A stretch of 64,000 nt of DNA from a virus. Shown piece by piece: positions 4,933 to 53,923 of this stretch; the first letter of the stretch is position 1; each line of letters begins with the position of its first letter. The DNA lies in the IMG/VR virus record IMGVR_UViG_3300045117_000026, positions 1 through 64,000 of that record. One strand, written 5' to 3'. The translations under genes were made by a program, and so were the position numbers. A model generated the notes under the pieces. That model did not search any database. It had not been told where the DNA came from and saw only the letters and a program-made list of their open reading frames with translations.

Positions 4933-5349
4933 TTATACGTCAATTCTTACCCCTCTGGTTCGGGACCACGTTAGATGCGACCGGTGTGAACGGCTACAAC
5001 AGTATTCATTCCTGTCTATCTTGGCACGATATTTAATCTGAGACATACGGATTTGTATCGTCTTCCCGCACCATGCGCATTTGACTGCCTTGTAGTGTGA
5101 GGCAGACTGACATGCCATATTGCAGAATATCCTGTGTCCTGCTATCGGCTTACCGCAACTTGGGTTGGCGCACAGGTGCATATTCTTTGTCTTTCTTGCG
5201 CCAAGCATTGCCTTGTACATCTCGGGTGCTTTCCTAACAAAGATTTGACGGATGTTCTCGTATGAACAGTCAAACTTCTTGCTGATATGGCGAAGCGTAA
5301 CGTCCGGATGTTTCTTCTTATAATCAATTACTGCTTTATGATTAACCAC
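4933..5349 (-). CDS. HTH plus zinc-ribbon protein
   Basis: 138 residues. An N-terminal helix-turn-helix-like segment (about 15-40, ISKKFDCSYENIRQIF) is followed by Cys pairs: CANPSC, CNMAC and CAWC, then a CC. This is the layout of a DNA-binding protein with one or two zinc ribbons. The protein at 26349-26930 has the same architecture and is probably a paralogue. The start overlaps the stop of the upstream gene by 8 bases. Confidence 0.65.
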   Translation of the reverse strand: MVNHKAVIDYKKKHPDVTLRHISKKFDCSYENIRQIFVRKAPEMYKAMLGARKTKNMHLCANPSCGKPIAGHRIFCNMACQSASHYKAVKCAWCGKTIQIRMSQIKYRAKIDRNEYCCSRSHRSHLTWSRTRGVRIDV

Positions 5350-5674
5350 GATTACTCCTTGCCCATTCCATTAAGGATGTTCTGAATTTCTCTTTTGTCA
5401 TCTCCAACAGAGACGAGTTCCCGCTGTCAATTGCTCGGAAGATAATCGGCCACAGGGCCAACAGTTCCTTATGCTTCTCTTCCGCAACAGCCTTTAAGTA
5501 TGCTTTGCTACAATCCGGCAACACGATGGTTGACGGGTCTACACCATTGGCCACCTGTTCCTGAACGTAGCGCCACCAATCGTCTTGGGATACTTCGTAG
5601 ACAATCCATTCGATGCCACTACGTCCAGGAATCAGATGACCGCCGCCCGCGGTTTTGTTAAAACCTAGGTACAT
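5342..5674 (-). CDS. Hypothetical protein
   Basis: 110 residues. The N-terminal half is beta-rich and aromatic, the C-terminal half helical (AEEKHKELLALWPIIFRAI). Family not recognised. The start overlaps the stop of the upstream recombination-type gene by a single base, so it is likely part of the same operon. Confidence 0.6.
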   Translation of the reverse strand: MYLGFNKTAGGGHLIPGRSGIEWIVYEVSQDDWWRYVQEQVANGVDPSTIVLPDCSKAYLKAVAEEKHKELLALWPIIFRAIDSGNSSLLEMTKEKFRTSLMEWARSNRG

Positions 5675-6591
5675 TAGGAAGCCGCTTTAGTAGCAATCTC
5701 CTTTGCTTTATTCCAGATTTCTTCCTGAGTGACCTGTGCTGCGGTGCGGCCGCCAAGTGCTGAGAGCACCTGATTAGGAAGGAGACCAAACTGTTCTCTT
5801 ACTTTCTTGAAGCAAACAGTTTTGTCGGAGAATGGCGGTTCTGTATTCGTGGCTGTCGGGTCGACTTTAGGCTCAACCTTTTCCACGGTAATCTTCGGTG
5901 TCCTTTGCGGCATGGAGTCGGAATCCATTTCTTCCGGCATTGAGCCAAGCCCTTCACCGAGAGCCTTACGGCAGGCATCTCCGAACGCTCTTGTGCGAGC
6001 CATGTTGACTACTCGCTCGAGATTGGCTGAAGCGCCTGCTTGCATCTTGGCGCCGGACAGGGTACAGATACCGTGCCCGTCGTAGTGTTCGCCATTCCAG
6101 AATTCGATGACAACATCAATCTGCGCCCACGGGTCCTGACTTTCCTCATGAACATTAAGGTTGCGGAAAGTAATGGACTTCTTCAGCCTTGGGTCGGCAT
6201 CAAGTCGCCACTTTCTACCGTCAACACCAGCGTAGGGCCGGCCGCTGATGATAGACACGGTGTCATACGGCACATTGGCGATGTTGACGAACTGGTCAAT
6301 CATCTTGAGTGTCTTCTTGTCAATGTACGTACCCGGCTTCACCTTTAACAGCGCTGAACGTTCGTTGTCGGGCAGGCGCCGTTGCTGTTCAATACAGTTG
6401 AACAACGAAGCACGGGATTGTGCCGACATCAGGAATGCTGGTATTGCTTCCCGTGGAAAGCCAGCGACAGTCATGAGTTGCGAGAGTTCGGAAATCTGCG
6501 CCTGTTCTTTCTTTATGATTTCAGTATTTATAACTCCCTGTACTGAAGCAGGGACCAGAGCAGAGGTAGGTTCGTCTTGTTTCTTTGGCAT
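5674..6591 (-). CDS. Probable DNA recombination-associated protein
   Basis: 305 residues. A central basic helix (LERVVNMARTRAFGDACRKALGEG) resembles the conserved 'MARTRA...RALR' helix seen in phage single-strand annealing or accessory recombination proteins. A beta-rich segment precedes it and a Pro-rich linker follows. It lies upstream of RNase H and nuclease genes. The family is inferred from this helix and the context only; structure prediction would decide between RecT/Erf-like and another fold. Confidence 0.5.
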   Translation of the reverse strand: MPKKQDEPTSALVPASVQGVINTEIIKKEQAQISELSQLMTVAGFPREAIPAFLMSAQSRASLFNCIEQQRRLPDNERSALLKVKPGTYIDKKTLKMIDQFVNIANVPYDTVSIISGRPYAGVDGRKWRLDADPRLKKSITFRNLNVHEESQDPWAQIDVVIEFWNGEHYDGHGICTLSGAKMQAGASANLERVVNMARTRAFGDACRKALGEGLGSMPEEMDSDSMPQRTPKITVEKVEPKVDPTATNTEPPFSDKTVCFKKVREQFGLLPNQVLSALGGRTAAQVTQEEIWNKAKEIATKAAS

Positions 6592-17636: not shown

Positions 17637-18446
17637 TTAGACTAATTCCGTTCCTGTAAGTTCAAATTGAATAGCCTGTTTATACCTGTCAACTGCTATA
17701 CGGCAATAGCGTTCCTCGATGTCAATACCGATACACTTGCGTCCTAGTTTCTTGGCAGCAACAATAGCGGTACCCGAACCGAGAAACGGGTCAAGTATCG
17801 TTTGCCCCTCTAGTGAGTATGTCTGGATAAAGTACTCGAATAGCTTTAATGGTTTTTGTGTCGGATGCAATCCTCTGTCACCCGTTGCTCGGTTGTTAAA
17901 CTCTACGACAGAAGACGGGAATCGCAAAGTGTCTGCTTTGTTATTATATTCCGCTTCTAGATTATTAAACTTACCTACGAACTCGCCACTATTCCGGCGT
18001 GTCGCATCACTGAATAGGTACTTAACACGTTCTGTACCGCTTCCTCGCCTCTCTATCTTTATAGGATAGTAGTTCACCTTTGCTTTGCCGAACACAAGCA
18101 CTTCCTCGTGCTCTTTCATCGGGGCATAGTCGGCTTGAGCAAAATTGCTCGCACACAGTTTCTTGTATATCCATTCATGCCTAAACTGCTTTGGATTACT
18201 GGAAACCAATACAGAAGTATATGGTTGGCTAGCAGTGAATATCATGGCAGAGGACGGCTTGATTAGCCGATTAAATAACGACCACATTTCGTTAGTAGGT
18301 ATAGTTGAATCCCATGAGCAAGATGTTATCCCGTAAGGCGGGTCAGTTAGTATCAAGTCTATGCTCAGTTCGGGGAGTAATGGCAACACGCTCTTGTAGT
18401 CGGCATTATAGACGCATATGTCATTGTCTTGGAAATAGGGTTTCAT
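17637..18446 (-). CDS. DNA methyltransferase, N6-adenine/N4-cytosine type
   Basis: 269 residues. Catalytic motif DPPYG (35-39) comes before the SAM motif FLGSGT (near 222), the beta-class order. HPTQKPLKLFEYFI precedes the SAM motif as expected. Full length for a stand-alone phage methyltransferase. It modifies specific DNA sites, probably to resist restriction; specificity unknown. Confidence 0.85.
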   Translation of the reverse strand: MKPYFQDNDICVYNADYKSVLPLLPELSIDLILTDPPYGITSCSWDSTIPTNEMWSLFNRLIKPSSAMIFTASQPYTSVLVSSNPKQFRHEWIYKKLCASNFAQADYAPMKEHEEVLVFGKAKVNYYPIKIERRGSGTERVKYLFSDATRRNSGEFVGKFNNLEAEYNNKADTLRFPSSVVEFNNRATGDRGLHPTQKPLKLFEYFIQTYSLEGQTILDPFLGSGTAIVAAKKLGRKCIGIDIEERYCRIAVDRYKQAIQFELTGTELV

Positions 18447-19356: not shown

Positions 19357-20355
19357 TCATCCCAAGTCTGTAAATGCTGTAATAGATAACTGCTCGTGCT
19401 TCAGGCAACTAGGGGAAAACCATATTGTTTCACGCTTGCTGTTTTCACGCCCTTGCCCTTCGCCTTGATTTCCGTAGCCACCCCCGGACTTCCATCGGTA
19501 AACAGCCCAATCATCGGGCATGGGATGTTCTGTATCATAACCGCATAGGGCAATCCGCATTAGTGGATTTTTGCCTGCTTCGATTGCCCACGCTCTGACC
19601 TCCGCCGATACTGCATTACCGCCAGTAGTGTACATACTTTCATAGTCATCATACGGTGGGTCAAGGAATATCCCCGTTAGTCCTAGCACAAACGTAGGTG
19701 ACGGCGTTACTATACGTGACCAATCGCCACAGCATACACGCACATCCTTAAACCGTCCCGATAACCTATCAAACCACTCATATAATGGTTGAGTGGGGCG
19801 GTTGACACCTTCCCCTAGGTTTCTCAGCTGAGGTAGTTGGCGGTTGATACCCCGTGAACCACTCATGTGGGGTAACTGACGATTGACACCCTGTCCTTTA
19901 CCAGCCTTAACCATCAATCCATTCTCTGATACCCATGAGCCTTTTCCTCTACAAAAACCCCGACCTATCCAGCAGGACATACCCCATGCCCACCAGCCTG
20001 CTATCTTTGGGTCATACCAATCAGGGTTGCCCTCCAGTTTAGCAGCCAGTTCATCCTTGCGCTGTACCAGCCAATAGTGACGGGCGTGTAGGTCATTCTC
20101 AATAACAGGATAATCCGCATATTCAGCCGTCTTCTGTGGGTCATGCTTAACTGCTCGCCAAAAGTTGCTAACGTAGCCATCTTTATCATTCACCGTTTCG
20201 ATATGCCCTGTATGCCATGCCGGGCGGCGTAGCAAAACAGCACCGGAGCCAAAGAACGGCTCTACATAGTTCGGCACATCTCCGAACCTGCGCCATACCT
20301 CATCGGCTATTTTAGACTTCCCTCCGAAATAGGGGAACGGTGCTTCAAGTACCAT
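19357..20355 (-). CDS. Dam-family DNA adenine methyltransferase with internal repeats
   Basis: 332 residues. PYFGGKSKIA (8-17), EPFFGSGA (32-39) and LDPPYDD (near 233) are the alpha-class Dam motifs. Between them, about residues 155-190, a unit around G(V/I)NRQLP occurs three times. Such repeats sit where target recognition would lie. It probably methylates adenine at specific sites; specificity unknown. Confidence 0.85.
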   Translation of the reverse strand: MVLEAPFPYFGGKSKIADEVWRRFGDVPNYVEPFFGSGAVLLRRPAWHTGHIETVNDKDGYVSNFWRAVKHDPQKTAEYADYPVIENDLHARHYWLVQRKDELAAKLEGNPDWYDPKIAGWWAWGMSCWIGRGFCRGKGSWVSENGLMVKAGKGQGVNRQLPHMSGSRGINRQLPQLRNLGEGVNRPTQPLYEWFDRLSGRFKDVRVCCGDWSRIVTPSPTFVLGLTGIFLDPPYDDYESMYTTGGNAVSAEVRAWAIEAGKNPLMRIALCGYDTEHPMPDDWAVYRWKSGGGYGNQGEGQGRENSKRETIWFSPSCLKHEQLSITAFTDLG

Positions 20356-20593: not shown

Positions 20594-20804
20594 TATCTCT
20601 CCCCATGCTTACGTCTGTCACAAGGGCTAACGACTTTGCTTTCTCAAATGCCTCTCGTAATTCATCGTAAGCCTCAACGTCATCAAGAACTCGCTCGGCG
20701 TCATTTATCGCTTGTATTAACGGCGTAACATCCACAAGTCTGTTGTCGATTCTTCCAACGGCAATCTTAGCCATTTTAATAAGTTGTTCTACTTCTTTTA
20801 GCAT
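20586..20804 (-). CDS. Small helical protein
   Basis: 72 residues from ATG 20804, preceded by GGAGAGG. Mostly acidic helix, probably a helical hairpin or coiled coil. The start overlaps the stop of the cytosine methyltransferase gene. Function unknown. Confidence 0.6.
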   Translation of the reverse strand: MLKEVEQLIKMAKIAVGRIDNRLVDVTPLIQAINDAERVLDDVEAYDELREAFEKAKSLALVTDVSMGRDNG

Positions 20805-21958
20805 CGTTGCCTCTCCACATCCGCTATCGCCTTGAGTATTGGGTAAGCCTGTGGGACGCAAATTGCATTACCTAACGCCGTGAGCCGGTTGACCCTTTCC
20901 GTTTTGTCTGTCGTGAGGGGGTGCGGCATTTCCCATTCTCCCCCTGCCCAGGTGGGGATATATCCAGCCAGCCCTTCGGAAATCCCATCATCCATGCTAC
21001 AAAGTCGGGGTTCAATGTCCCCTTGTTTTTCGGAAACTGGTTTGTCCATTCGGGCAGATTCCCGTGATAATCCTTGCTCCCCGGTTTCCTGGTGGACACG
21101 CATCCCTTGTAATCCCTTGCCGACGGAGTGGGTATCGTGACTGAACGAGTCAGTGATTGATATTGACCGCTCTCCCGTGTCGCATTGTTGGCGTCGTCCG
21201 CTGTCGGTGTAGCCAATAATCCAGACCCGGTCCCGGCGGTGGATGGCGTTGACGGCGCAAGCTGGAATAATAATCGGTTGGACTCTGTAACCGATTCGCT
21301 CCATCTCGGTTGTGATTCCGTCCAACCACGAAAACAATTCTGCTTGTGTCTGACCACCTTCTTCGTCCTCGTCACCCGCCACTTCAGATACGCTATCTGA
21401 CTTGTCCATTCCCTTGATTCCAGCAGGATTCTCAAACACGCACCAAGTGGGTCTGAGTTCTTCAAGCACGCGGATAGTTTCATCCCAGAGCCAGCGGTCA
21501 TCTGCCGTGCCTCCTCGCTTCCCGGCAACACTGACAGGCTGGCATGGAGGAGAGGCTGTAAGCAGGGTGAGGGGGATTGACCAACTCTGACTGCTATCCC
21601 CAACGGTGTTCCCCCTTGCTGATAAGGGGTTTTCCTGTCCCCCTCGCTGGCTCTCGGTGTCGGCAGTAACCCCTTTTGTGCGAATGTTTCCAGCGTCCTG
21701 TCCGATTGCCGCTTGCTGCGAGGATTGTATTCCTTGCCAGGTCCTCTCCGTCCGTCCCATGCATTTGGTGTCGGAATTAATCCGCTCATACGTAACCTCC
21801 TTGACATCTGAGATAATCGGCACACCTGGGAAATGGTGTCTGAGTATGGATTGGCAGTAGGGGTTGATTTCACATAGGGCAACCGTGCGAAACCCTGCCC
21901 ATTCAGCAGCCAAGGTAAACCCGCCAATCCCGCTATACAGGTCGATGTGCGATAACAT
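20798..21958 (-). CDS. DNA (cytosine-5)-methyltransferase
   Basis: 386 residues. Motif I DLYSGIGGF (6-14), catalytic PPCQPVS (137-143, Cys139), ENPAG (176-180), RRDRVWIIG and C-terminal LTALGNAI are all present, so the enzyme looks complete. The spacer between motifs I and IV (about 60-125) and the stretch near 260-330 are low-complexity, polar and unlike typical family members. These are the parts where a second gene is read in another frame (20872-21789). Confidence 0.9.
   Translation of the reverse strand: MLSHIDLYSGIGGFTLAAEWAGFRTVALCEINPYCQSILRHHFPGVPIISDVKEVTYERINSDTKCMGRTERTWQGIQSSQQAAIGQDAGNIRTKGVTADTESQRGGQENPLSARGNTVGDSSQSWSIPLTLLTASPPCQPVSVAGKRGGTADDRWLWDETIRVLEELRPTWCVFENPAGIKGMDKSDSVSEVAGDEDEEGGQTQAELFSWLDGITTEMERIGYRVQPIIIPACAVNAIHRRDRVWIIGYTDSGRRQQCDTGERSISITDSFSHDTHSVGKGLQGMRVHQETGEQGLSRESARMDKPVSEKQGDIEPRLCSMDDGISEGLAGYIPTWAGGEWEMPHPLTTDKTERVNRLTALGNAICVPQAYPILKAIADVERQRC
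20872..21789 (-). CDS. Gene nested inside the cytosine methyltransferase gene (LPTP/MGFP family)
   Basis: 305 residues, same strand, different frame, wholly inside 20798-21958. ATG 21789 is preceded by a perfect AAGGAGGT five bases away, which the enclosing gene does not need. The protein repeats an (L/I)(L/A)PTP motif (GLIPTPNAWDG, GLLPTPRASEG, GLLATPTADDA, IPTPSARDY), has RLLFQLAPSTPST, and ends LNPDFVAWMMGFPKGWLD. I recognise this pattern from phage proteins of unknown function often annotated beside or as part of cytosine methyltransferases. Role unknown. It would be translated from the same mRNA as the methyltransferase. Confidence 0.65.
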   Translation of the reverse strand: MSGLIPTPNAWDGRRGPGKEYNPRSKRQSDRTLETFAQKGLLPTPRASEGDRKTPYQQGGTPLGIAVRVGQSPSPCLQPLLHASLSVLPGSEEARQMTAGSGMKLSACLKNSDPLGACLRILLESREWTSQIAYLKWRVTRTKKVVRHKQNCFRGWTESQPRWSESVTESNRLLFQLAPSTPSTAGTGSGLLATPTADDANNATRESGQYQSLTRSVTIPTPSARDYKGCVSTRKPGSKDYHGNLPEWTNQFPKNKGTLNPDFVAWMMGFPKGWLDISPPGQGENGKCRTPSRQTKRKGSTGSRR

Positions 21959-22867: not shown

Positions 22868-24088
22868 TTAATCCAAACTCAACCCAGGTGTCACCGTAAC
22901 CCTGTGTTTAATCAGTTCGCAATAGTTCTCGGATTGCTCCACCAGTATTGACCGCCTGCCTAATTGAGTCGCTACCTTTCCTGTAGTACCTGTTCCGGCG
23001 AACGGGTCAAGGACAATTTGCGGTTCAATAGGAGCATTACAATCGCACTGTGGTACCCAAGAACTTTTAGTTACCTGCGACATTCGTTCCAAAATGCGTT
23101 GCTTCAGGCGTGAGGGAGTAACGGCGCCAGTACCTTCATAATCTTTCATGTCGCTACCGAAATACTCGCCGTCACTATTACAGCCGGCTCGTTTCATTTC
23201 CTCGGTAATCTGGTGGTCAATAATAGTAATCTCACGCTGCCAAGGTTTGCCACACTTTGAGCATTGTCCTTTAGCAGATGTAGCCATTGAAATACACAGG
23301 CGAGGTATCTCTTCGGGGAAAGCAGCGAAGTGCGAAAGCCAATTATTTGTCCCACACTTCCGGCACCACCGCCCATCTTCTTTGAGAACAGTCCCCTTGG
23401 TGAATTCATCCCGCCCGTAAATCGTCTTGCACGTCAGGCACATATTGGCTGAGTAAGATACAGTCGGTATCTCCCATATTGCTCGGATGTTTCTGCCCGA
23501 GTTTGCGCACCTGTCACCAGGCTCGACTTGCCTCATGCCGTGCTCACCCTGCCCCTTAAGCTTCATGTTGCCATCGCCATATTCATTGCGCATTCTGGTT
23601 GACTCTTTATATGGGACACGGACGGCTTCCATGTCAAAGAAGTAATCTTCATTTAGCACAAACATAAGAATATGCTCGTAGTCAATCGTCGGTCTATCCG
23701 GTGCGGATGACGGCATTGAATTCGGCTTCACCCATATTATATCAGCTCGTGGTATCCAGCCCTCATCAGCTAATGCTATAGCAATGCGATGCGGGATTAA
23801 CTCGAGGTCCTTTGCTCTGGTGACGCCGAACTTATCGCCGACATTCCAGAAAACAACCCCGTCATTACGCAACACTGGTAACAGCGAGCCACAAAAGAAA
23901 TCAACTGTATGCTGTACATATTCGGCAACCGTTTTCTCTGCTCCAAACCATGCGTTACCATCATAGTCTCGCTGATTGAAATACGGTGGCGAAGTGACTA
24001 CGCATTGTACCTGGTAGGGCAGGGTGGCAAGGTCCTTGTTATCTCCATGATAGAGGGAGAGGAGAGGGGTCTGGTAAAAGACTTTCAT
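22868..24088 (-). CDS. DNA methyltransferase (SPPY type) with zinc-cluster insert
   Basis: 406 residues. Catalytic TSPPYF (32-37) and SAM motif FAGTGT (near 371) in beta-class order; SPPY suggests N4-cytosine methylation, though N6-adenine enzymes also use it. Between them are Cys pairs (CLTC, WCRKCG, CSKCGKPW, CDC) forming one or two zinc ribbons, as in several archaeal and phage methyltransferases, probably for target recognition. Confidence 0.85.
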   Translation of the reverse strand: MKVFYQTPLLSLYHGDNKDLATLPYQVQCVVTSPPYFNQRDYDGNAWFGAEKTVAEYVQHTVDFFCGSLLPVLRNDGVVFWNVGDKFGVTRAKDLELIPHRIAIALADEGWIPRADIIWVKPNSMPSSAPDRPTIDYEHILMFVLNEDYFFDMEAVRVPYKESTRMRNEYGDGNMKLKGQGEHGMRQVEPGDRCANSGRNIRAIWEIPTVSYSANMCLTCKTIYGRDEFTKGTVLKEDGRWCRKCGTNNWLSHFAAFPEEIPRLCISMATSAKGQCSKCGKPWQREITIIDHQITEEMKRAGCNSDGEYFGSDMKDYEGTGAVTPSRLKQRILERMSQVTKSSWVPQCDCNAPIEPQIVLDPFAGTGTTGKVATQLGRRSILVEQSENYCELIKHRVTVTPGLSLD

Positions 24089-28503: not shown

Positions 28504-28881
28504 TTACTCCTTCTTAATATATATTTTGAATTCATCATCGCCTGGGTAGAAGCGATACTTCTTACCATCGGCGGTCTTCCCCCCAAAGTTTAAGTCGTCA
28601 TCAATGCTGATTACTTCTACCAGAGAGGCCGGCTCAATATGTTCCCAGGGATCGTTGTACTTGATGACTTCAATTATGTCCCCGACCGCCAGCCCCCCTA
28701 GACCATCAAGTAGTAATTGCTTCTTGCGCAACCATTGCGGGTATAAGTCTTCTGGCGTTAGTTCATAAGCGGGACCGCGTCTAACGTCTGCTTCCTCTTC
28801 GGCGTTCTTGATTCGGGGTTTACGGCTTGTTGTTGCTTTGAGCTTGGTTGTGGAAGCCTTTGAGAAACCGCCGAGTTTCAT
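28504..28881 (-). CDS. Hypothetical protein with small barrel-like domain
   Basis: 125 residues. A basic N-terminus (about 1-30) is followed by a beta-rich segment (VGDIIEVIKYND...ASLVEVISIDDDL) like a KOW/SH3-type barrel. Could bind nucleic acid. Family not identified. Confidence 0.55.
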   Translation of the reverse strand: MKLGGFSKASTTKLKATTSRKPRIKNAEEEADVRRGPAYELTPEDLYPQWLRKKQLLLDGLGGLAVGDIIEVIKYNDPWEHIEPASLVEVISIDDDLNFGGKTADGKKYRFYPGDDEFKIYIKKE

Positions 28882-29874: not shown

Positions 29875-30261
29875 TTACTCGCTTGAGACTTCACCATAGA
29901 ACAAATCAACCTCGTTCTCAGCAAAGTCTACCCCGTATTGCTTACATATACGGATGAACATCAATCTCAGTTCGCGCACTGTTAGGTTGGCGCAGAGTTT
30001 GTCAAACGCTGGTATGCCCACATAATATGGTTCATAATCTCTCCAATATACCTCATCATCATCAACGCCATAGGCAAGTTCTCCGCCAATGAACACCAGC
30101 GCCTTTCCTTGGTTAGTACCACCCCATCCTTCGGTGCACTCATCCAGCTTTATGAGCTTGTGGATTTTCTCGTTGAACTTCTTGTCATCCGAATTCGCAA
30201 CACCCACGATGAGGAAGCTGGATGAACTCGAATTGGAGACAAAGCCGGTTCTGATTTTCAT
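29875..30261 (-). CDS. 'FVSNSSSSSF' family protein, copy 2
   Basis: 128 residues, start MKIRTGFVSNSSSSSFLI. This N-terminal serine block recurs in the neighbouring protein at 30280-30633 and is one I recognise from phage proteins of unknown function. After it comes an acidic alpha/beta domain rich in aromatic residues (YWRDYEPYYVG). It follows the JAMM gene and may belong to the same transcript. Confidence 0.6.
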   Translation of the reverse strand: MKIRTGFVSNSSSSSFLIVGVANSDDKKFNEKIHKLIKLDECTEGWGGTNQGKALVFIGGELAYGVDDDEVYWRDYEPYYVGIPAFDKLCANLTVRELRLMFIRICKQYGVDFAENEVDLFYGEVSSE

Positions 30262-30279: not shown

Positions 30280-30633
30280 TTAATCGTGCCAAGCTTCGGA
30301 AATATCCCTGATGTCTGTATCCGAAAGGTCTTCGCCAAATGCTTCCTTGAGTGAAAGGTTCTTAGTGGCAGCAAGGGACAGCAAGGCAAGCATAATTTTA
30401 ACCTTGGTAGTATACCGGAATGAAGCCCCTGTTTCGTCATCCTTTAATGAGTCATAACTGCGACCAATGTAGAGATCGTCATAGGGTGACACCCTGACGG
30501 TGAGACCATGCTTACCACAAATGTCGCTGATTTGCAAAGCGTCAAATGCGCAATCAAGGAGATTGAGGTATACTCCGTGGATCAGGAAAGAGGTGGTACT
30601 ACTGTTGCTTACGAAGCTTGTTCTTAGTTTCAT
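30280..30633 (-). CDS. 'FVSNSSSSSF' family protein, copy 1
   Basis: 117 residues, start MKLRTSFVSNSSTTSFLI, nearly the same first 18 residues as the downstream gene; the rest differs. The conserved Ser/Thr/Asn block at the extreme N-terminus could be a targeting, modification or cleavage signal. It lies between the JAMM gene and copy 2. Confidence 0.6.
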   Translation of the reverse strand: MKLRTSFVSNSSTTSFLIHGVYLNLLDCAFDALQISDICGKHGLTVRVSPYDDLYIGRSYDSLKDDETGASFRYTTKVKIMLALLSLAATKNLSLKEAFGEDLSDTDIRDISEAWHD

Positions 30634-30645
30634 GTTTAGCCTCCT

Positions 30646-31452
30646 TTACACCTCATTAACGTAAACATAATCTACCAAGAGGTAGATAGCATCTTGTTTA
30701 TCAGAGGGGGAGAGCGGAGCATCGGTGCGCAGTAGGTTAATAAGCCTTTTAGCAATAGACTTATCAAGGGTATCTCGCAAAGAACCAGATGTTGCCGGAC
30801 CATTGTAATTGTAATGAGCCTCAAGAGGGTACTCGTCTACAAGAGGAGCTTTTGATACATTAGTCTCTGGTAGCGGGTCAGCCTTGACTGTTACAGGCGC
30901 AGTTGTGAATACTTGAGTTAGCGTGCCTTTACCTCCCCATGTATCTGCTTTATCCGGCATTGACAAGAGGAATGTTTTTGTTTCCTCTGCCCATTTGGTA
31001 TGATCGGGCCAGTCATGCACATGGACCGTAATCTCTTTCACCATGACTGCACCGCACAATGTCTTTCCTTTGACTGATGCGCTGATGGCGCCGGAGTTGG
31101 TGATTATCAAGCTGACAGGATTATTGGCGTCTACATAACTCTGATCAGCCGGCGAATGGAATGTCCCCATGTTGTGGTGCGAATGTATGACGCCGACTTT
31201 CCGCTCCGGGGAGACTTCCCCAGGTAACATCTCGCACCAGCCGGAACTGGGTTTGACCTGGCGTGGAATAACGATGTCATCGACAAGTACCAGTTCATCA
31301 GAGATCGTGCCGAGACACCATCCAATCCACTCAAGGTTGCTCATTGCATCGCATAGGGAACATGCTTTGGCAAAGGCGTCAAGGGTTATTGAAACATCTG
31401 GGAAGATACCGGGTTTTCCGCATTGGGTAATACACTCTTTAGATTGCCACAT
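30646..31452 (-). CDS. JAMM/MPN+ metalloprotease (deubiquitinase-like)
   Basis: 268 residues. The JAMM motif HxHx7Sx2D is exact: His90, His92, Ser100, Asp103 (HSHHNMGTFHSPAD), with Glu41 (LEWIGW) as the likely catalytic Glu. JAMM enzymes cleave isopeptide or peptide bonds after ubiquitin-like Gly-Gly ends. The last 90 residues form a separate helical part. The stop and start overlap with the E1 gene. The modifier ending in GGC two genes upstream is a probable substrate: removal of its last Cys would expose GG. Confidence 0.85.
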   Translation of the reverse strand: MWQSKECITQCGKPGIFPDVSITLDAFAKACSLCDAMSNLEWIGWCLGTISDELVLVDDIVIPRQVKPSSGWCEMLPGEVSPERKVGVIHSHHNMGTFHSPADQSYVDANNPVSLIITNSGAISASVKGKTLCGAVMVKEITVHVHDWPDHTKWAEETKTFLLSMPDKADTWGGKGTLTQVFTTAPVTVKADPLPETNVSKAPLVDEYPLEAHYNYNGPATSGSLRDTLDKSIAKRLINLLRTDAPLSPSDKQDAIYLLVDYVYVNEV

Positions 31453-32483
31453 TATGTCTTAATCTCCTTTCTTCCTTTTTCCAGACCTGCCATGAATGCC
31501 TCGCAATAATCGCAATTATGTTGCTTACAGTTAAGACACTTACCAGGTCCGTCAGCTAGACCCTTATTGTATGCTCTGCAGTCCTCACAATCTCTGTGTA
31601 CGCATTCATTACAATTACCAAAGTCAACTTCATCCGCGTCAACCTTACCGCAGTTCTCGCACGCATTTGCGACGGCTCTACAACCATCACACTTGTCGCA
31701 GTCATCGCAGTCCCCACGGTAGCAGTCATCGCACATTTCTCTGTGCGCCTTGCATTCGTCACGTTTACAGCGGTCACAATCATCGAAGCTGTCTTTCTTG
31801 GTACATGTCTTGCACAGTTCTGGGCTGGCAACCTCTTGAGTAACAATCCTGGGTTGTCCTACATCACCGATATCCATTGATAGTTGAAGCAATGGAAACT
31901 TCATGAGCTTGGCTACACCCATTGCGGCGGCCGCTATAGCTGGGACGACCCAGCTTGGGATAAAGTTGTAGGCCGCTATCTTACCGTTCTCGTCTACTAC
32001 GGCAGGAACTTTCTCCTGAACCCATCCGGGTAACTTGTCTGCTACCATGAAGTGAGTACCATCATACCCAAGCTTTGTGTATGTCACTCCATAGTCAACT
32101 GACCATTTGTAGTTAATCCCCTGGGAAATCAGAGTGTCGGTACAATCTATCAGATTGTCGGGTAAGACATAGTCATTGTGGAAATCCTCGAGCGGGAACT
32201 TTACGATATACGCATTACACGTAATATCCGGTCGCAGGGCTATGATAAGCTCCCTTGTCGCTTCAGCTTTATACTGGTCAAGCTGATGGATTGTGAACGG
32301 CAGTCGGTTCAGGTTAGAAGCTTCAATCCGGTCAGGGTCGTACAGTTCAATGTGCGGTACCCCTGACATCGCAAGGAGCAAAGCTACCCAAGCACCGACA
32401 CCACCGCACCCAACTACTGCCACCTTTTGTGGCATCAAGAGGTGCAACTCCTGTTGCCTGTTATAAATTATGTCGGCTTCCAT
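31452..32483 (-). CDS. ThiF/E1-like activating enzyme with 21-Cys tail
   Basis: 343 residues. GCGGVGAW (25-32), Asp49, Asp51, NLNR (57-60), Lys72 and IDCTD (112-116) are the ATP/adenylation residues of E1/ThiF/MoeB enzymes, which adenylate the C-terminal Gly of a ubiquitin-like protein. Residues 224-327 hold 21 cysteines, mostly in CxxC pairs separated by acidic residues, far beyond the two CxxC of ThiF/MoeB zinc sites. The tail could bind several zinc ions or an Fe-S cluster, or carry thioester Cys. The ORF overlaps both neighbours, indicating one operon. Confidence 0.85.
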   Translation of the reverse strand: MEADIIYNRQQELHLLMPQKVAVVGCGGVGAWVALLLAMSGVPHIELYDPDRIEASNLNRLPFTIHQLDQYKAEATRELIIALRPDITCNAYIVKFPLEDFHNDYVLPDNLIDCTDTLISQGINYKWSVDYGVTYTKLGYDGTHFMVADKLPGWVQEKVPAVVDENGKIAAYNFIPSWVVPAIAAAAMGVAKLMKFPLLQLSMDIGDVGQPRIVTQEVASPELCKTCTKKDSFDDCDRCKRDECKAHREMCDDCYRGDCDDCDKCDGCRAVANACENCGKVDADEVDFGNCNECVHRDCEDCRAYNKGLADGPGKCLNCKQHNCDYCEAFMAGLEKGRKEIKT

Positions 32484-33343
32484 AATCCTGATCCTTTCGC
32501 TTCGTCATTAAAGTCTTCCTTCAATGCATTAATCACATCATTGTACGTCGGGATATTATCCTCTGGATTTTCATGCATACCGGAAAACTCGTTAATGTAA
32601 CCCTGTTGTGCTATTGCTTGTGTTATTAGTTGTGTCGGCTCGGGGTTTAAGGGAACGTTGCGATAAGCAAGAGATCGCACACAGTTATTGTACCCGGAGC
32701 CGTAATAGTTGCGGAACGGGGCGCCGTCCTGCCGGAAGAGACCAATGTTACTGCATACAGGTGATCTGGTGCCTGTGAAACGGAGTTGCAGGAATACGTT
32801 ACGGCTTGAGGCTTCTTGTATTTCCTTTGGTATATCGTAGAACTTCCCGTGACGTTCAAGCTTTGTCGGGCACCAAGTGAACGGGACTGCATATACAAGA
32901 CAGTCTAGATGATAGAACAACCTCTTACCGCTAACGGCGTATTGTATGGTGAACCACTTTGGGAACTTGAACTCGTTTGACGTATTTACTTTTCTGAGGA
33001 ATTCGTTAATGGCAATGACAGCAACCCTTTTGTTAGAACTTGCTTGGTCTGCCATTACACCAACCAAACTCTTTATGATAGGCTCTTTGGTTTTCTTGTT
33101 GGTGACGGAAACGTCGCAGGAGCCAATGTCTGCGTCGTTTAATTTCAGGGTAATGGAGTTGTCTTCCGTCCTTAGAGCGTCAATGATCTGCTTATACTCA
33201 GGTGGCTCTTCAGGCACATGTCCGTTTGATGCCAGCCATACCGACAGCGGGCAACGTTCACTAAAAGAACAAGCGGTGTGCGGTATCAATGACTGCGGAA
33301 CACGTGCACCGTTGACAGACATTACTTCTTGATTTGTCGGCAT
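32468..33343 (-). CDS. Candidate E2-like protein of the ubiquitin-like cassette
   Basis: 291 residues, family not recognised by sequence. Its place, between modifier and E1 with 16 bases overlapping the E1 gene, is where E2 conjugating enzymes sit in bacterial Ubl-E2-E1-JAB operons. The middle is beta-rich (FTIQYAVSGKRLFYHLDCLVYAVPF), followed by PVCSNIG and NNCVRSL, either of which could hold a catalytic Cys. No HPN-type E2 signature is visible. It may instead be the conjugation target or a substrate adaptor. Confidence 0.55.
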   Translation of the reverse strand: MPTNQEVMSVNGARVPQSLIPHTACSFSERCPLSVWLASNGHVPEEPPEYKQIIDALRTEDNSITLKLNDADIGSCDVSVTNKKTKEPIIKSLVGVMADQASSNKRVAVIAINEFLRKVNTSNEFKFPKWFTIQYAVSGKRLFYHLDCLVYAVPFTWCPTKLERHGKFYDIPKEIQEASSRNVFLQLRFTGTRSPVCSNIGLFRQDGAPFRNYYGSGYNNCVRSLAYRNVPLNPEPTQLITQAIAQQGYINEFSGMHENPEDNIPTYNDVINALKEDFNDEAKGSGLWKPT

Positions 33344-33366
33344 AGTTACCCTCCTTAAGGATTATG

Positions 33367-33395
33367 AAGTCGGGGGTCATTACGACCCCCGACTT
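33367..33395 (-). other. Strong hairpin just after the ubiquitin-like gene
   Basis: AAGTCGGGGGTC (33367-33378) pairs perfectly with GACCCCCGACTT (33384-33395), loop of 5. It lies 39 bases past the stop of the modifier gene and 24 before the next start. On the minus strand no T-run follows, so it is more likely an attenuator or RNA-stabilising end that raises the modifier level over the enzymes. Confidence 0.6.
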
Positions 33396-33434
33396 GTTTG
33401 TTGTCCGGACAGTCAAACTATATAAGCTACGGGA

Positions 33435-33671
33435 TTAGCACCCGCCAGCGTTATAAGCCTCAATCCGAACGGTCATACCAACCTCGAAGGAAGCTGGTAC
33501 GTTGTTGCCGGTCTCGTCAATCTCTACATCGTTGACGTAGACGCGGGCACTGTTGATACCGTGCTTGATAAGGAGATCATTGATGCCGCTACCGAATTTG
33601 GTCCCTGCAGCGACTTCGACCGCCTTACCATCGACCGTGACACTGAGCGCCTTTGCTTTCTGTTCCCACAT
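33435..33671 (-). CDS. Ubiquitin-like (beta-grasp) modifier ending in Gly-Gly-Cys
   Basis: 78 residues. The order LSVTVDGKAVEVAAGTK - helix (INDLLIKHGI) - SARVYVNDVEID - MTVRIEAYNAGGC follows the beta-grasp fold of MoaD/ThiS/ubiquitin-like proteins. The C-terminus is GGC, so a protease must remove one residue to expose GG; the JAMM gene downstream supplies a candidate. GAAAGGAG precedes ATG 33671. It is the first gene of the cassette, followed by a hairpin, as expected for the most abundant component. Confidence 0.8.
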   Translation of the reverse strand: MWEQKAKALSVTVDGKAVEVAAGTKFGSGINDLLIKHGINSARVYVNDVEIDETGNNVPASFEVGMTVRIEAYNAGGC

Positions 33672-35020: not shown

Positions 35021-36004
35021 TTACACCTCGTATATCGGACATCTGCGGTAATTGGTTAACAGCCTATTCCGGAAAGCAATAGTGTGTCGATTGTTCCATA
35101 CCTCGTTCATAAAGTTACCAGAATGAACAACATCCACGCCATCGCACACATTCTCGGTGAATGAGCAAGGGAAGCCAATGCCTTTAGCGTTAATGTAGTA
35201 GGAGAACAAGGTTGACTCACACGGCTCAACGCTACTAGCATCCACAGATACGCCGGAGTTGATTACGTTATGAGCACTACAGCTATCAAAGCCGACAGTT
35301 ACCTGCCTGTCCAATGATGCTTGGAGTAATCGCTGATATGACCTTGTATCCTTTACTTTACTGAACCTTGATGTCTGTCCGCGACCCTTTGGCTTAAAGG
35401 CAAGAAAGACAATAGCGTTGACCTCGAGACCCATAGCTTTAGTGTTACTCACCTCGGTAATAAGGCGAACGCAATCATCAAGTGTTTCCTCAGAGAGAAG
35501 TGCATGGATATTATTCTGCGTGATACCACGTTTCCTTAATTCATGGAGAGCGGTAAAGCATACGTCTTTGTCATAGTACGACACCGCCACCGCTCCACAC
35601 AGCTTGGAGAGAATGTCATAGTACCTCGGCGTCATACGGAAGCCGTTGATAGTAATGTTGGGTATAACGCCTTTGCTTCGAGTATACTCAAGGATGGCGG
35701 GGAGGTCGGGGTTGCCATCAATGTCTCCTATGCCGAACGCTATTTGCGTGAGGTTACTTGGAGCTTTATCAATGATACCCTTGAATGTATCAAGGCTCAT
35801 GTTGTAACCATCAGCAGTATTACCCTTATAGCAGAACCTGCATCCTTGATGACAGACGGTGCTCAGTTCAATATCAAGGAGTTCCGGACCAAGTGGCGAC
35901 ACCTGCGGGTCGTCCTGTATGGTGTTACCCCAACGCATAAAGAAGCCGTTGTTTTGATTGAATATGTAGTTGTAACCAGGGTGCTTAACTACTTTGAGCG
36001 ACAC
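35021..36004 (-). CDS. Radical SAM protein with C-terminal Cys cluster
   Basis: 327 residues. CHQGCRFCYKG (near 51-61) is the CX3CX2C 4Fe-4S motif. The C-terminal third has further Cys (SVEPCESTL, GFPCSF, RRCPIYEV) like SPASM/twitch domains that bind auxiliary clusters and modify peptides. Such proteins occur in phages but their targets are unknown. Confidence 0.8.
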   Translation of the reverse strand: MSLKVVKHPGYNYIFNQNNGFFMRWGNTIQDDPQVSPLGPELLDIELSTVCHQGCRFCYKGNTADGYNMSLDTFKGIIDKAPSNLTQIAFGIGDIDGNPDLPAILEYTRSKGVIPNITINGFRMTPRYYDILSKLCGAVAVSYYDKDVCFTALHELRKRGITQNNIHALLSEETLDDCVRLITEVSNTKAMGLEVNAIVFLAFKPKGRGQTSRFSKVKDTRSYQRLLQASLDRQVTVGFDSCSAHNVINSGVSVDASSVEPCESTLFSYYINAKGIGFPCSFTENVCDGVDVVHSGNFMNEVWNNRHTIAFRNRLLTNYRRCPIYEV

Positions 36005-52047: not shown

Positions 52048-52253
52048 AACTAAAGGAAGACTTCGGGGTAACGGCATTATTCGGTTGCCTGATAATTGTC
52101 GGCGCCTTTGCTGTTATCCTTGCCGCCCTGTTAAAGGACAAGATAGAGTTCGAGTCTGTTTTTGTTGCTGTTTCATCCTGGGTAGGGTCGATAATCACAG
52201 CGTACGTACTCAAGGCTAAGACCAACGGCTTTGGGGGGAAAGAACAAAAATGA
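52044..52253 (+). CDS. Small membrane protein, two TM segments
   Basis: 69 residues, hydrophobic helices about 8-30 and 38-57, charged GGKEQK end. Overlaps both neighbours by 4 bases. Could be a holin-like or head-associated membrane protein. Confidence 0.6.
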   Translation: MKLKEDFGVTALFGCLIIVGAFAVILAALLKDKIEFESVFVAVSSWVGSIITAYVLKAKTNGFGGKEQK

Positions 52254-53923
52254 CTGAAGAAAACGGGTCCCTCGCTAGCAGACCAGATGAAGTTGTTGGA
52301 GCTGATGGCTCGTTGAATGCGGCTGGGCTTCACAAGGACGGTCGAGAGGGACCCGCCGAACTCAATGAACAGCATATCCTGACAGGAATGCCACCGATAC
52401 CGCAAATATTACAGTGCGTTGTCACCTTTCAGGCAGTTAACCTTGTCGGCTCCTCTGTATATGACGGTAGCAAACCCCACGATGCCGATGTTCTGGTTCG
52501 CTCGTCAAGCTCGCTCCCAGAACTCGAGCGTAATCTGGAAACACAACTTGGGCCAAAGGTACATTTCCTCTACGAGACTAAAGGGCCGTCTTGGGACCAC
52601 ATGCCTCTCGGCGACTTTGTTCTTTATCCGGTTAACGGCAAACCAGCTATAAGCGAAAGTTCTGCAGCAGATACGCTAGCTGGAAAGTTACGGCCAATAC
52701 TCGTCGACCCTCGGTATCTCAACCTCGTCAAATCTTCCGGAACTATCAAATTCCGAGTGAACTCCGATTCGCCTGACCCCGGTTTCTTTCTGAAGTTACA
52801 GAGGATGATGGGTGACTTGGGGCAGGATGCGGTGGGTTTCTCTCAGAAGACTGAGGTGGGGGAGGTACCGGTGGGGATGCTTTATTTTATTCCATATCCG
52901 GCCTTTCAGAAAGTCGTGGTTAACGAACCGGACTTTAAGCGATTCTATATTAAGAAAACAAATGTTGAGGAGAATGCAATGCTTGTAAAAGATTTTTTGG
53001 AGTTGATTGAGGGTGTCGGTCTAGTTGAGGGAACGCGGCCGCCGTGGGGTTCTCCAGGTGGCAAACGCTTCATGGCAAGGCGTCTTATAAAGATGTTTCC
53101 GGAAGAGTTCAAAACCTATGTCGAGCCGTTCTTTGGCGGTGGCGCCGTTTTCTATGCGATGGATAATCAAAAGCAGGGACGCAAAGAGATTATCAACGAC
53201 CTTAATAAAGACATCGTCCGTGCCGTCAAGTTTATCCAGCATATATCCGACGCACAAATTGACGCCCTGTCGAAGAAGGATTGGAAGCCGACTGCCGATC
53301 ACTATGCTTATCTTAAGAACTTGAAGCCGGTGCGGGAAGTTGATTGGATGTACCGCTTCCTCTACATGAAGCGTCATTCCTACGGTGGCAATATCGGTCA
53401 GCAAGGATTGAAACAAGCCACCCACACCCCCGCCTACTTTGAGAACCTGAAGAGGGTGAGAGAGCGTCTCAAGGGTGTCGATGTCCGTAGCGAAGACGCT
53501 GCGAAACTCATCCCCAAAGTTGACGGCAAGGACGTGTTCTTTTTCCTTGACCCGCCGTATCCTGAGAAGACAAAGAACTGGTTTAATCTCGGCTGGATAG
53601 AGATGGACGACCTCGTCAAGCTGGCAAAGGGGATGAAAGGCAAGTTCCTGATGACATTACAGGCCGGTACCAAGGTCCGGAGTGCTTTCAAAGACTTCAA
53701 CGTCAAGTCAATGAAGACATATGCCTACATTATCACCAATCGTCCAGGACAGGCCCCTGCAGTCCGCAACGAAACCATCATCACGAACTACGATAAGAAG
53801 AACGTCAAGGAAGCTTTTCCTGAGAAGTTCTTTACTATTACTGCGAGTGATGGCATTACTGTCATCGAGCAGAAACTACTGACGCCTGAAGAAATGGAAG
53901 CCCTCGAGTTTTCTGAGGATTAG
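52250..53923 (+). CDS. Fusion: nucleotidyltransferase-like domain plus Dam-type methyltransferase
   Basis: 557 residues. The N-terminal part has VNLVGSSVYDGSKPHDADVLVRS (about 63-85), matching the GS...HDxD motif of Pol-beta-like minimal nucleotidyltransferases. The C-terminal part has a PGGKRFMARRL segment, VEPFFGGGAVFY and FFLDPPYPEK, the alpha-class adenine methyltransferase motifs. Both sit between portal and capsid genes. The fusion may modify DNA during packaging; role unproven. Confidence 0.75.
   Translation: MTEENGSLASRPDEVVGADGSLNAAGLHKDGREGPAELNEQHILTGMPPIPQILQCVVTFQAVNLVGSSVYDGSKPHDADVLVRSSSSLPELERNLETQLGPKVHFLYETKGPSWDHMPLGDFVLYPVNGKPAISESSAADTLAGKLRPILVDPRYLNLVKSSGTIKFRVNSDSPDPGFFLKLQRMMGDLGQDAVGFSQKTEVGEVPVGMLYFIPYPAFQKVVVNEPDFKRFYIKKTNVEENAMLVKDFLELIEGVGLVEGTRPPWGSPGGKRFMARRLIKMFPEEFKTYVEPFFGGGAVFYAMDNQKQGRKEIINDLNKDIVRAVKFIQHISDAQIDALSKKDWKPTADHYAYLKNLKPVREVDWMYRFLYMKRHSYGGNIGQQGLKQATHTPAYFENLKRVRERLKGVDVRSEDAAKLIPKVDGKDVFFFLDPPYPEKTKNWFNLGWIEMDDLVKLAKGMKGKFLMTLQAGTKVRSAFKDFNVKSMKTYAYIITNRPGQAPAVRNETIITNYDKKNVKEAFPEKFFTITASDGITVIEQKLLTPEEMEALEFSED

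Follow-up and report, generated by a model that had tools for sequence, protein, structure and literature searches.

Bacterial ubiquitin-like operons have so far been known mainly as anti-phage defences, among them Bil and type II CBASS. The latter has no separate gene for a ubiquitin-like protein (Ubl), and its Cap2 enzyme acts on the cyclase itself. In BilABCD the letters A to D denote Ubl, E2, deubiquitinase (DUB) and E1; the Bil Ubl has two domains, the Bil E1 contains both a second adenylation domain and a Cys domain, and the Bil E2 bears a CEHH motif (PMC11354881). Here we report a four-gene cassette, comprising a Ubl modifier, a divergent protein that we call X, an E1-like enzyme and a JAMM isopeptidase, in a 64,000-nucleotide stretch of viral DNA (positions 1 to 64,000 of IMG/VR record IMGVR_UViG_3300045117_000026; hereafter the window). 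The window carries terminase, portal and capsid/protease genes and is thus part of a tailed phage, whose source record comprises 79,568 bases. We think it probable that the four genes constitute this phage's own small, reversible ubiquitin-like conjugation system, one that may serve replication. All four open reading frames (ORFs) lie on the minus strand and are transcribed in the order Ubl, X, E1, JAMM, with overlaps of 16 nucleotides between X and E1 and of 1 nucleotide between E1 and JAMM:

33435..33671, minus strand: Ubl modifier, 78 residues, a single beta-grasp domain with N-terminus MWEQ and C-terminus NAGGC (hidden Markov model (HMM) of relatives)
32468..33343, minus strand: X, a divergent protein predicted to be E2-like (UBC fold), 291 residues (HMM, alignment, AlphaFold model)
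31452..32483, minus strand: E1-like adenylating enzyme of the ThiF family, 343 residues (Pfam ThiF, motifs, structure matches)
30646..31452, minus strand: JAMM/JAB isopeptidase, 268 residues, N-terminus MWQSK (motif, alignment)

An original prediction, made from the sequence alone, had correctly described this single-strand arrangement, with X overlapping the E1 gene. Its further statement that Bil operons share the order was mistaken, as Bil runs Ubl-E2-DUB-E1 (PMC11354881) and the window proteins match no Bil models.

Recurrence of the cassette and its gene neighbourhoods

Single-protein scans of IMG/VR and GTDB genomes returned nothing close for X, E1 or JAMM, the only match being a weak one between JAMM and the JAMM of crAss-like phages, and an E1-profile scan of GTDB genomes had ordinary chromosomal ThiF-like genes without the cassette among the matches listed. 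A DNA pattern for the JAMM motif (HSH[HN]NMxxFxSxxD) located 53 virus loci, a ThiF gene directly adjoining JAMM in at least 36 of them, including L009, which has the window's order. An E1 profile built from the window and L009 gave 43 loci, and a DNA pattern for the E1 motif Y-x3-PSW[VA]VPA-x3-AA gave 29, with thirteen new records analysed. When loci were scored with HMMs built for each of the four cassette proteins, the complete set was found in 25 distinct IMG/VR loci, on one strand and in the order Ubl-E2-E1-JAMM in every one, bearing out the suggestion that other phages keep these genes together. In local alignment the window and its relatives share 36-43% identity in E1, 29-39% in JAMM and 26-33% in Ubl. 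Because an HMM trained on independent relatives detects the Ubl of the window at 5.6e-11, and because one order holds across all complete loci, the cassette lies beyond chance. Searches of named phages with tblastn found none of X, E1 and Ubl, and the relatives' E2s were likewise absent there, so the exact window type is known only from IMG/VR virus contigs. One such cassette stands in L119 (IMGVR_UViG_2597490295_000007), a record whose number has the look of a single genome's, not a metagenome's, and which could supply a host for the family. We found no earlier report of a complete phage Ubl cassette in the open-access full-text literature; subscription journals and preprints lay outside this scope, and priority is not established.

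A sliding-clamp gene lies upstream of Ubl in 19 of the 25 complete loci, mostly within 210 bases, and two of the clamp proteins match phrog_223, 'DNA polymerase processivity factor' (4.5e-7 and 5e-4). As the set and its order recur in viruses, usually beside a clamp gene, the cassette appears to belong to the phage toolkit and not to be a stray host gene. In a second, widespread group, drawn from crAss-like, marine and other phages, the order is Ubl-E2-JAMM-E1, with a Sak4-like annealing protein (4e-23) and DnaB/primase coming next in the loci examined; in crAss001 the cassette genes stand between DNA primase and uracil-DNA glycosylase. This group comprises L003 (crAss001 gp75-gp79) and L007-L059; a motif resembling H[PS]H..C[LTFY]G occurs in 30 of its 31 upstream proteins, the putative E2s, and its Ubls are short, ending in ..SG or ..TSG instead of GG.

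These neighbourhoods also bear on the purposes first suggested for the cassette, namely modification of virions or of host proteins, and counter-defence, none of which gained support; the cassettes of relatives adjoin replication and recombination genes. In a counter-defence role the cassette would disturb the host's CBASS Cap2/Cap3, Bil or Bub systems, for example with JAMM removing tags, or with Ubl or E2 as decoys. Phages do attack ubiquitin-like host defences, and the window E1 shares similarity with BubCD and with the E1 part of CBASS E1-E2 proteins. Nevertheless, a full set of four genes exceeds the needs of a decoy and the relatives' cassette genes lie within replication modules, while X, Ubl and JAMM, searched among the window proteins, matched no PADLOC defence model, those of Bil, Cap2 and Cap3 included; we consider such a role quite improbable.

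The candidate E2 and its partner proteins

The assignment of the four proteins to a conjugation system draws on the following features within their genes:

32681..32683, minus strand: codon of X Cys221, the predicted catalytic cysteine (Cys in 25 of 25 aligned proteins)
32394..32411, minus strand: E1 nucleotide-binding motif GCGGVG (sequence, alignment)
31503..31814, minus strand: Cys-rich tail of E1 with 11 CxxC, absent from the relatives' E1s aligned
31144..31185, minus strand: JAMM metal-binding motif H90-S-H92-x7-S100-x2-D103 (sequence, alignment)
33438..33446, minus strand: C-terminal Gly-Gly-Cys codons of Ubl (sequence), whose glycine would be the expected activated end after removal of Cys78

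X has no useful-level match in Pfam, NCBIfam or PHROGs, the E2 family of the relatives' cassettes matches no Pfam model, and PDB profile searches with the E2 alignment returned coiled-coil-like noise only. The relatives' gene between Ubl and E1 encodes the motif HYHxxxxDCWGxW, then a predicted helix, then INxxSxAxxxPxxLP, an arrangement that, judged from sequence, is as expected for an E2 active site. X ranks first with the E2-family HMM among window ORFs and shuffled controls (E 0.0024, or 0.01 and 0.008 when the HMM is built from other members) and aligns to the HYH..DCWG site, with C221, N251, S254, P265 and W288 in common. All 25 members of the E2 alignment share C221 and S254, with conservation also at N251, P265, P128 and the terminal W288; the N-terminal H..C.....CP residues of X recur in its nearest relatives, L060-L062. 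Of the landmarks anticipated for an E2, the Cys after the fourth strand is present in X, whereas the His (HPN-like) before the catalytic Cys is not (N212). Tandem E2 genes stand in the cassette of L065 (L065:4234-5223 and 5230-5976; HMM 6e-106 and 6e-60).

The AlphaFold model of X is good over residues 141-270 (mean block scores of 72-96 for the most part, dropping to 57 once) and poor over residues 1-140. It presents four strands, then the Cys, then a helix, with C221 between strand 196-203 and helix 236-247. The best 42 VIA-align matches to this model are E2 or UEV domains, RWD-like and other domains coming next, and the best score is Z 5.4 (4.2 A over 125 residues); E2 structures of Bil, Cap2 and Bub are absent among the matches listed, which is not evidence of absence. 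Comparison of the product of 32468-33343 with E2 folds therefore upholds the early proposal that X is an E2, its predicted fold being like UBC/UEV domains. The assignment rests on the structural aligner's second look, the homologue set and synteny, and the two enzymes are further tied together by L086, in which E2 and E1 occupy one ORF (E2 1e-11, E1 1e-35). This natural phage fusion (L086:5059-6843) spans 594 residues and has a Cys-rich N-terminal region that is RING-like or treble-clef-like. On the combined sequence and model evidence it is very likely that X is E2-like; its place is that of the E2 in a conserved cassette, and it is best read as an E2.

The E1 was first described as an E1/ThiF protein with full adenylation motifs and a Cys-rich tail, and both features hold: it matches Pfam ThiF at 84.5 bits (cutoff 28.1), keeps GCGGVG, N57-x2-R60, K72 and D116, and has 21 Cys and 11 CxxC in its last 143 residues. 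Among solved structures it matches ThiF, MccB, UBA5, UBA1, Cap2 and BubCD, ThiF and MccB being best. Eight aligned E1s have just two invariant Cys residues, C26 and C114, which belong to GCGG and CTD within the nucleotide-binding domain, and the former is not universal among later-found family members; a conserved thioester Cys is absent from these eight, whose sequences beyond the crossover carry an invariant PSWxVPA. The Ubl adenylate would in consequence pass straight to the E2 cysteine, unless a cryptic Cys is used, and a lineage-specific thioester Cys within the window E1 tail is possible. Cys-rich segments recur elsewhere in the family, at the N-terminus of the L086 fusion and as JAMM extensions in L065 (where the extension is long), L073 and L025. 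They are probably metal-binding, and could be target-binding or E3-like modules.

The exact JAMM signature originally noticed (HxHx7Sx2D) is likewise secure, as E41 and H90-S-H92-x7-S100-x2-D103 are all invariant in the JAMM alignment. Against Pfam Prok-JAB the window protein scores 22.3, just below the cutoff of 25, and relatives score 28.3 and 26.1, above it. The 78-residue ORF ending in GGC is confirmed too, and its predicted model has the anticipated beta-grasp topology, with Foldseek matches to ThiS (probability 0.99) and SUMO (probability 0.99), the best of them to ThiS within the ThiS-ThiF complex. Prok_Ub (PF14454) was not detected in the virus record, in a search without a positive control. 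The C-terminus is GGC in the window and ..AG or ..RG in most relatives; in a few, residues follow the glycine (..AGR, ..AGA, ..PGVE, ..AGKKAGKSSS), which suggests that JAMM processes Ubl. We read this protein as a beta-grasp modifier whose C-terminal glycine is predicted to become available after processing.

Several findings weigh against reading the cassette as a conjugation system active in this phage. The combination of a ThiS-like Ubl with a ThiF-type E1 that lacks a thioester Cys is also compatible with sulfur transfer, that is, a cassette in which a ThiS/MoaD-type Ubl would be adenylated by E1 for thiocarboxylation and trimmed of its Cys by JAMM, with X as scaffold or sulfur acceptor. 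The best structural matches of Ubl (ThiS in the ThiS-ThiF complex) and of E1 (ThiF and MccB) accord with this, as does the GG-C end, such ends being suited to JAMM-trimmed sulfur carriers, and we keep this explanation mainly because the E1 family lacks a conserved thioester Cys. It is unlikely given the UBC fold of X, a Cys invariant across 25 diverse homologues, and the fusion of E2 to E1 in L086; moreover, the neighbours examined included no recognisable rhodanese or sulfurtransferase gene, those of the relatives being replication genes. Further points concern the evidence for conjugation itself: most relatives' Ubls end in a single ..AG, not GG, X matches the E2 family weakly in sequence (E 0.002-0.01), the Z of 5.4 is modest, and Foldseek alone found no significant match to X in PDB and BFVD. 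The alignment behind the X model included E2-family homologues, so the sequence and model lines on X are not independent. Finally, a search of the window's virus record found no clamp or Sak4 gene.

The remaining adverse points lie in X, where N212 (NYY) replaces a His held by 23 of 25 family members, X having the only Asn among the 25, and where the relatives' DCWG is NCVR, the W-G after the Cys being absent only in the window protein. Activity of X is therefore not to be assumed, and the protein could be inactive or altered. X has, moreover, diverged further than E1 and JAMM, and BLASTP finds no relative of it. These features would accord with a family that works elsewhere and is degenerate in the window phage, X having lost activity and the cassette decaying or acting as a mere binding module. 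Such decay is improbable, as the four reading frames are intact with overlapping starts, and C221, N251, S254 and W288 persist, as do the E1 and JAMM motifs. The original prediction of a full attach-and-remove system thus survives in the fold of X, the beta-grasp modifier and the linkage of the genes, and falls short as regards the activity of X.

Tryptophan motif, hairpin and proposed mechanism

Two further features, one shared by the proteins and one in the RNA, may bear on how a conjugation system of this kind is assembled and expressed:

32480..32482, minus strand: codon of X Trp288, C-terminal Trp motif (29 of 29 relatives' E2s)
33367..33395, minus strand: 12-bp perfect RNA hairpin between the Ubl and E2 genes (8 G-C pairs; folding z -3.1)

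A Trp stands at most 15 residues from the C-terminus in all 29 E2s, typically as DVWxS, at most 20 residues from the N-terminus in 19 of 31 Ubls (Phe in some others), and before the catalytic core in 31 of 35 JAMMs (DSWEV, DYWEN); as the loci are related, these counts are not independent events. The motif is present in none of the 19 clamps of the same loci and in 3-4 of 35 E1s, and the window holds it in Ubl (MWEQ), X (GLWKPT) and JAMM (MWQSK). In L060, a 73-residue, helical-looking protein with an MWGK start (L060:4754-4975) lies directly before E2 and has the cassette Trp motif; it may be a further cassette component or a substrate.

The hairpin is the only perfect inverted repeat in the 14 kb around it. 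Relatives have strong hairpins of unrelated sequence in the same Ubl-E2 gap, where the median folding z is -3.7 as against -1.1 in other co-oriented gaps of the same loci (p 1.8e-4); a comparison of hairpin stem lengths with those of other gaps was not significant (Fisher p 0.15). We rejected the window hairpin as an intrinsic terminator on the coding strand, where it has no U-tract; read on the plus strand it is terminator-like.

In the conjugation system that we favour, JAMM would trim Cys78 to expose the Gly-Gly of Ubl, E1 would adenylate the glycine, and the activated Ubl would pass directly to Cys221 of the E2, which would join it to an amine on the target; JAMM would reverse the bond. 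The Trp motif at the ends of Ubl, E2 and JAMM may bring all three to one docking hub, for which E1, itself without the motif, is the simplest candidate, and the hairpin between Ubl and the enzyme genes may let the modifier be made in excess of the enzymes. We tentatively place the targets among phage replication or recombination proteins, because the relatives' cassettes adjoin a sliding clamp, or Sak4 with helicase-primase; for the window phage, whose record shows no such clamp or Sak4, this role is extrapolated. A bolder and doubtful extension is that in many tailed phages Ubl is put on and taken off the sliding clamp or its partners, as a SUMO/ubiquitin-like switch on replication. This would be a viral parallel of PCNA ubiquitination and SUMOylation, a speculative one to our minds, achieved through an E2 family outside Pfam, an E1 that lacks a thioester cysteine, and a common Trp docking motif. 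If these proposals are true, then phages use protein tagging for their own life cycle, a new E2 family and a minimal E1 that may hand Ubl directly to E2 are added to those known, and the cassette becomes a natural test case for an origin of ubiquitin-like clamp modification outside eukaryotes.

Other features of the window deserve record. Directly downstream of JAMM, two minus-strand genes (29875-30261 and 30280-30633) have near-identical N-termini (MKIRTGFVSNSSSSSFLI and MKLRTSFVSNSSTTSFLI) and differ afterwards, the shared portion being a recurring N-terminal tag. Upstream of the cassette and on the same strand, 35021-36004 (minus) encodes a radical SAM protein (Pfam Radical_SAM, 40.9 bits) whose end is weakly SPASM-like. 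The phage also has no fewer than five genes for DNA methyltransferases, of N6/N4, C5 and D12 types (17637-18446, 19357-20355, 20798-21958 and 22868-24088, minus strand; 52250-53923, plus strand), with no obvious restriction partner noticed in the window. An AT-rich imperfect palindrome (TTCTTAATATATAT / ATATATATTTTGAA) lies at 28511-28530, at the end of a small gene.

Comparison with known systems

Like Bil, the window cassette gathers Ubl, E2, E1 and JAB/JAMM in one operon, a single set that would both conjugate and remove the modifier; unlike Bil, it has a single-domain Ubl, a minimal E1 without a Cys domain, another gene order and a phage genome as its setting. The features that define Bil are accordingly absent: the window Ubl has 78 residues, its E1 one adenylation domain, and the positions +6, +8 and +13 after C221 are Y, N and P (no CEHH). 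Class 6d operons, which we take to be the same as PRTRC, also encode Ubl, JAB, E1 and E2 as separate genes, and a similar site, ..CWG/..CGG, is seen in the PRTRC-like E2 proteins of L013 and L052. They differ in an extra alpha-helical protein and in an E2 His after the Cys, not before it (Iyer 2006), and the window proteins fall below the NCBIfam PRTRC cutoffs (ThiF 24.4 versus 144.75 bits), and at E<=1 neither Ubl nor X nor JAMM matches any other PRTRC model. Type II CBASS Cap2/Cap3 and Bub (BubCD) resemble the cassette in their E1 domains, E2-E1 pairing and JAB protease. L086 fuses E2 and E1 as Cap2 does, whereas in the window these are separate genes and the E1 part alone matches.

Among phages, crAss001 has adjoining genes for Ubl-like, E2-like (HSH..CTG), JAMM and ThiF proteins (gp79-gp78-gp77-gp76), annotated just as hypothetical, metalloprotease and ThiF. 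Its E1 domain is clearly related to that of the window (hhalign 7e-11), whereas its order is Ubl-E2-JAMM-E1 and its E2 and Ubl are distantly similar only; hhalign comparisons of window-type with crAss-type or PRTRC E2s (E 0.03-0.06) are suggestive only. Lambda TAPI/TAPK also combine a phage Ubl-like domain with a JAB protease, but have no E1 or E2 and are sited in the tail genes (PMC1779556). By analogy, then, the cassette would be like its closest bacterial counterparts, Bil, Bub, CBASS Cap2/Cap3 and class 6d/PRTRC, in kind, in that it would activate, transfer and remove a modifier, and it is unlike all of them in carrier, gene order, E2 family and E1 architecture.

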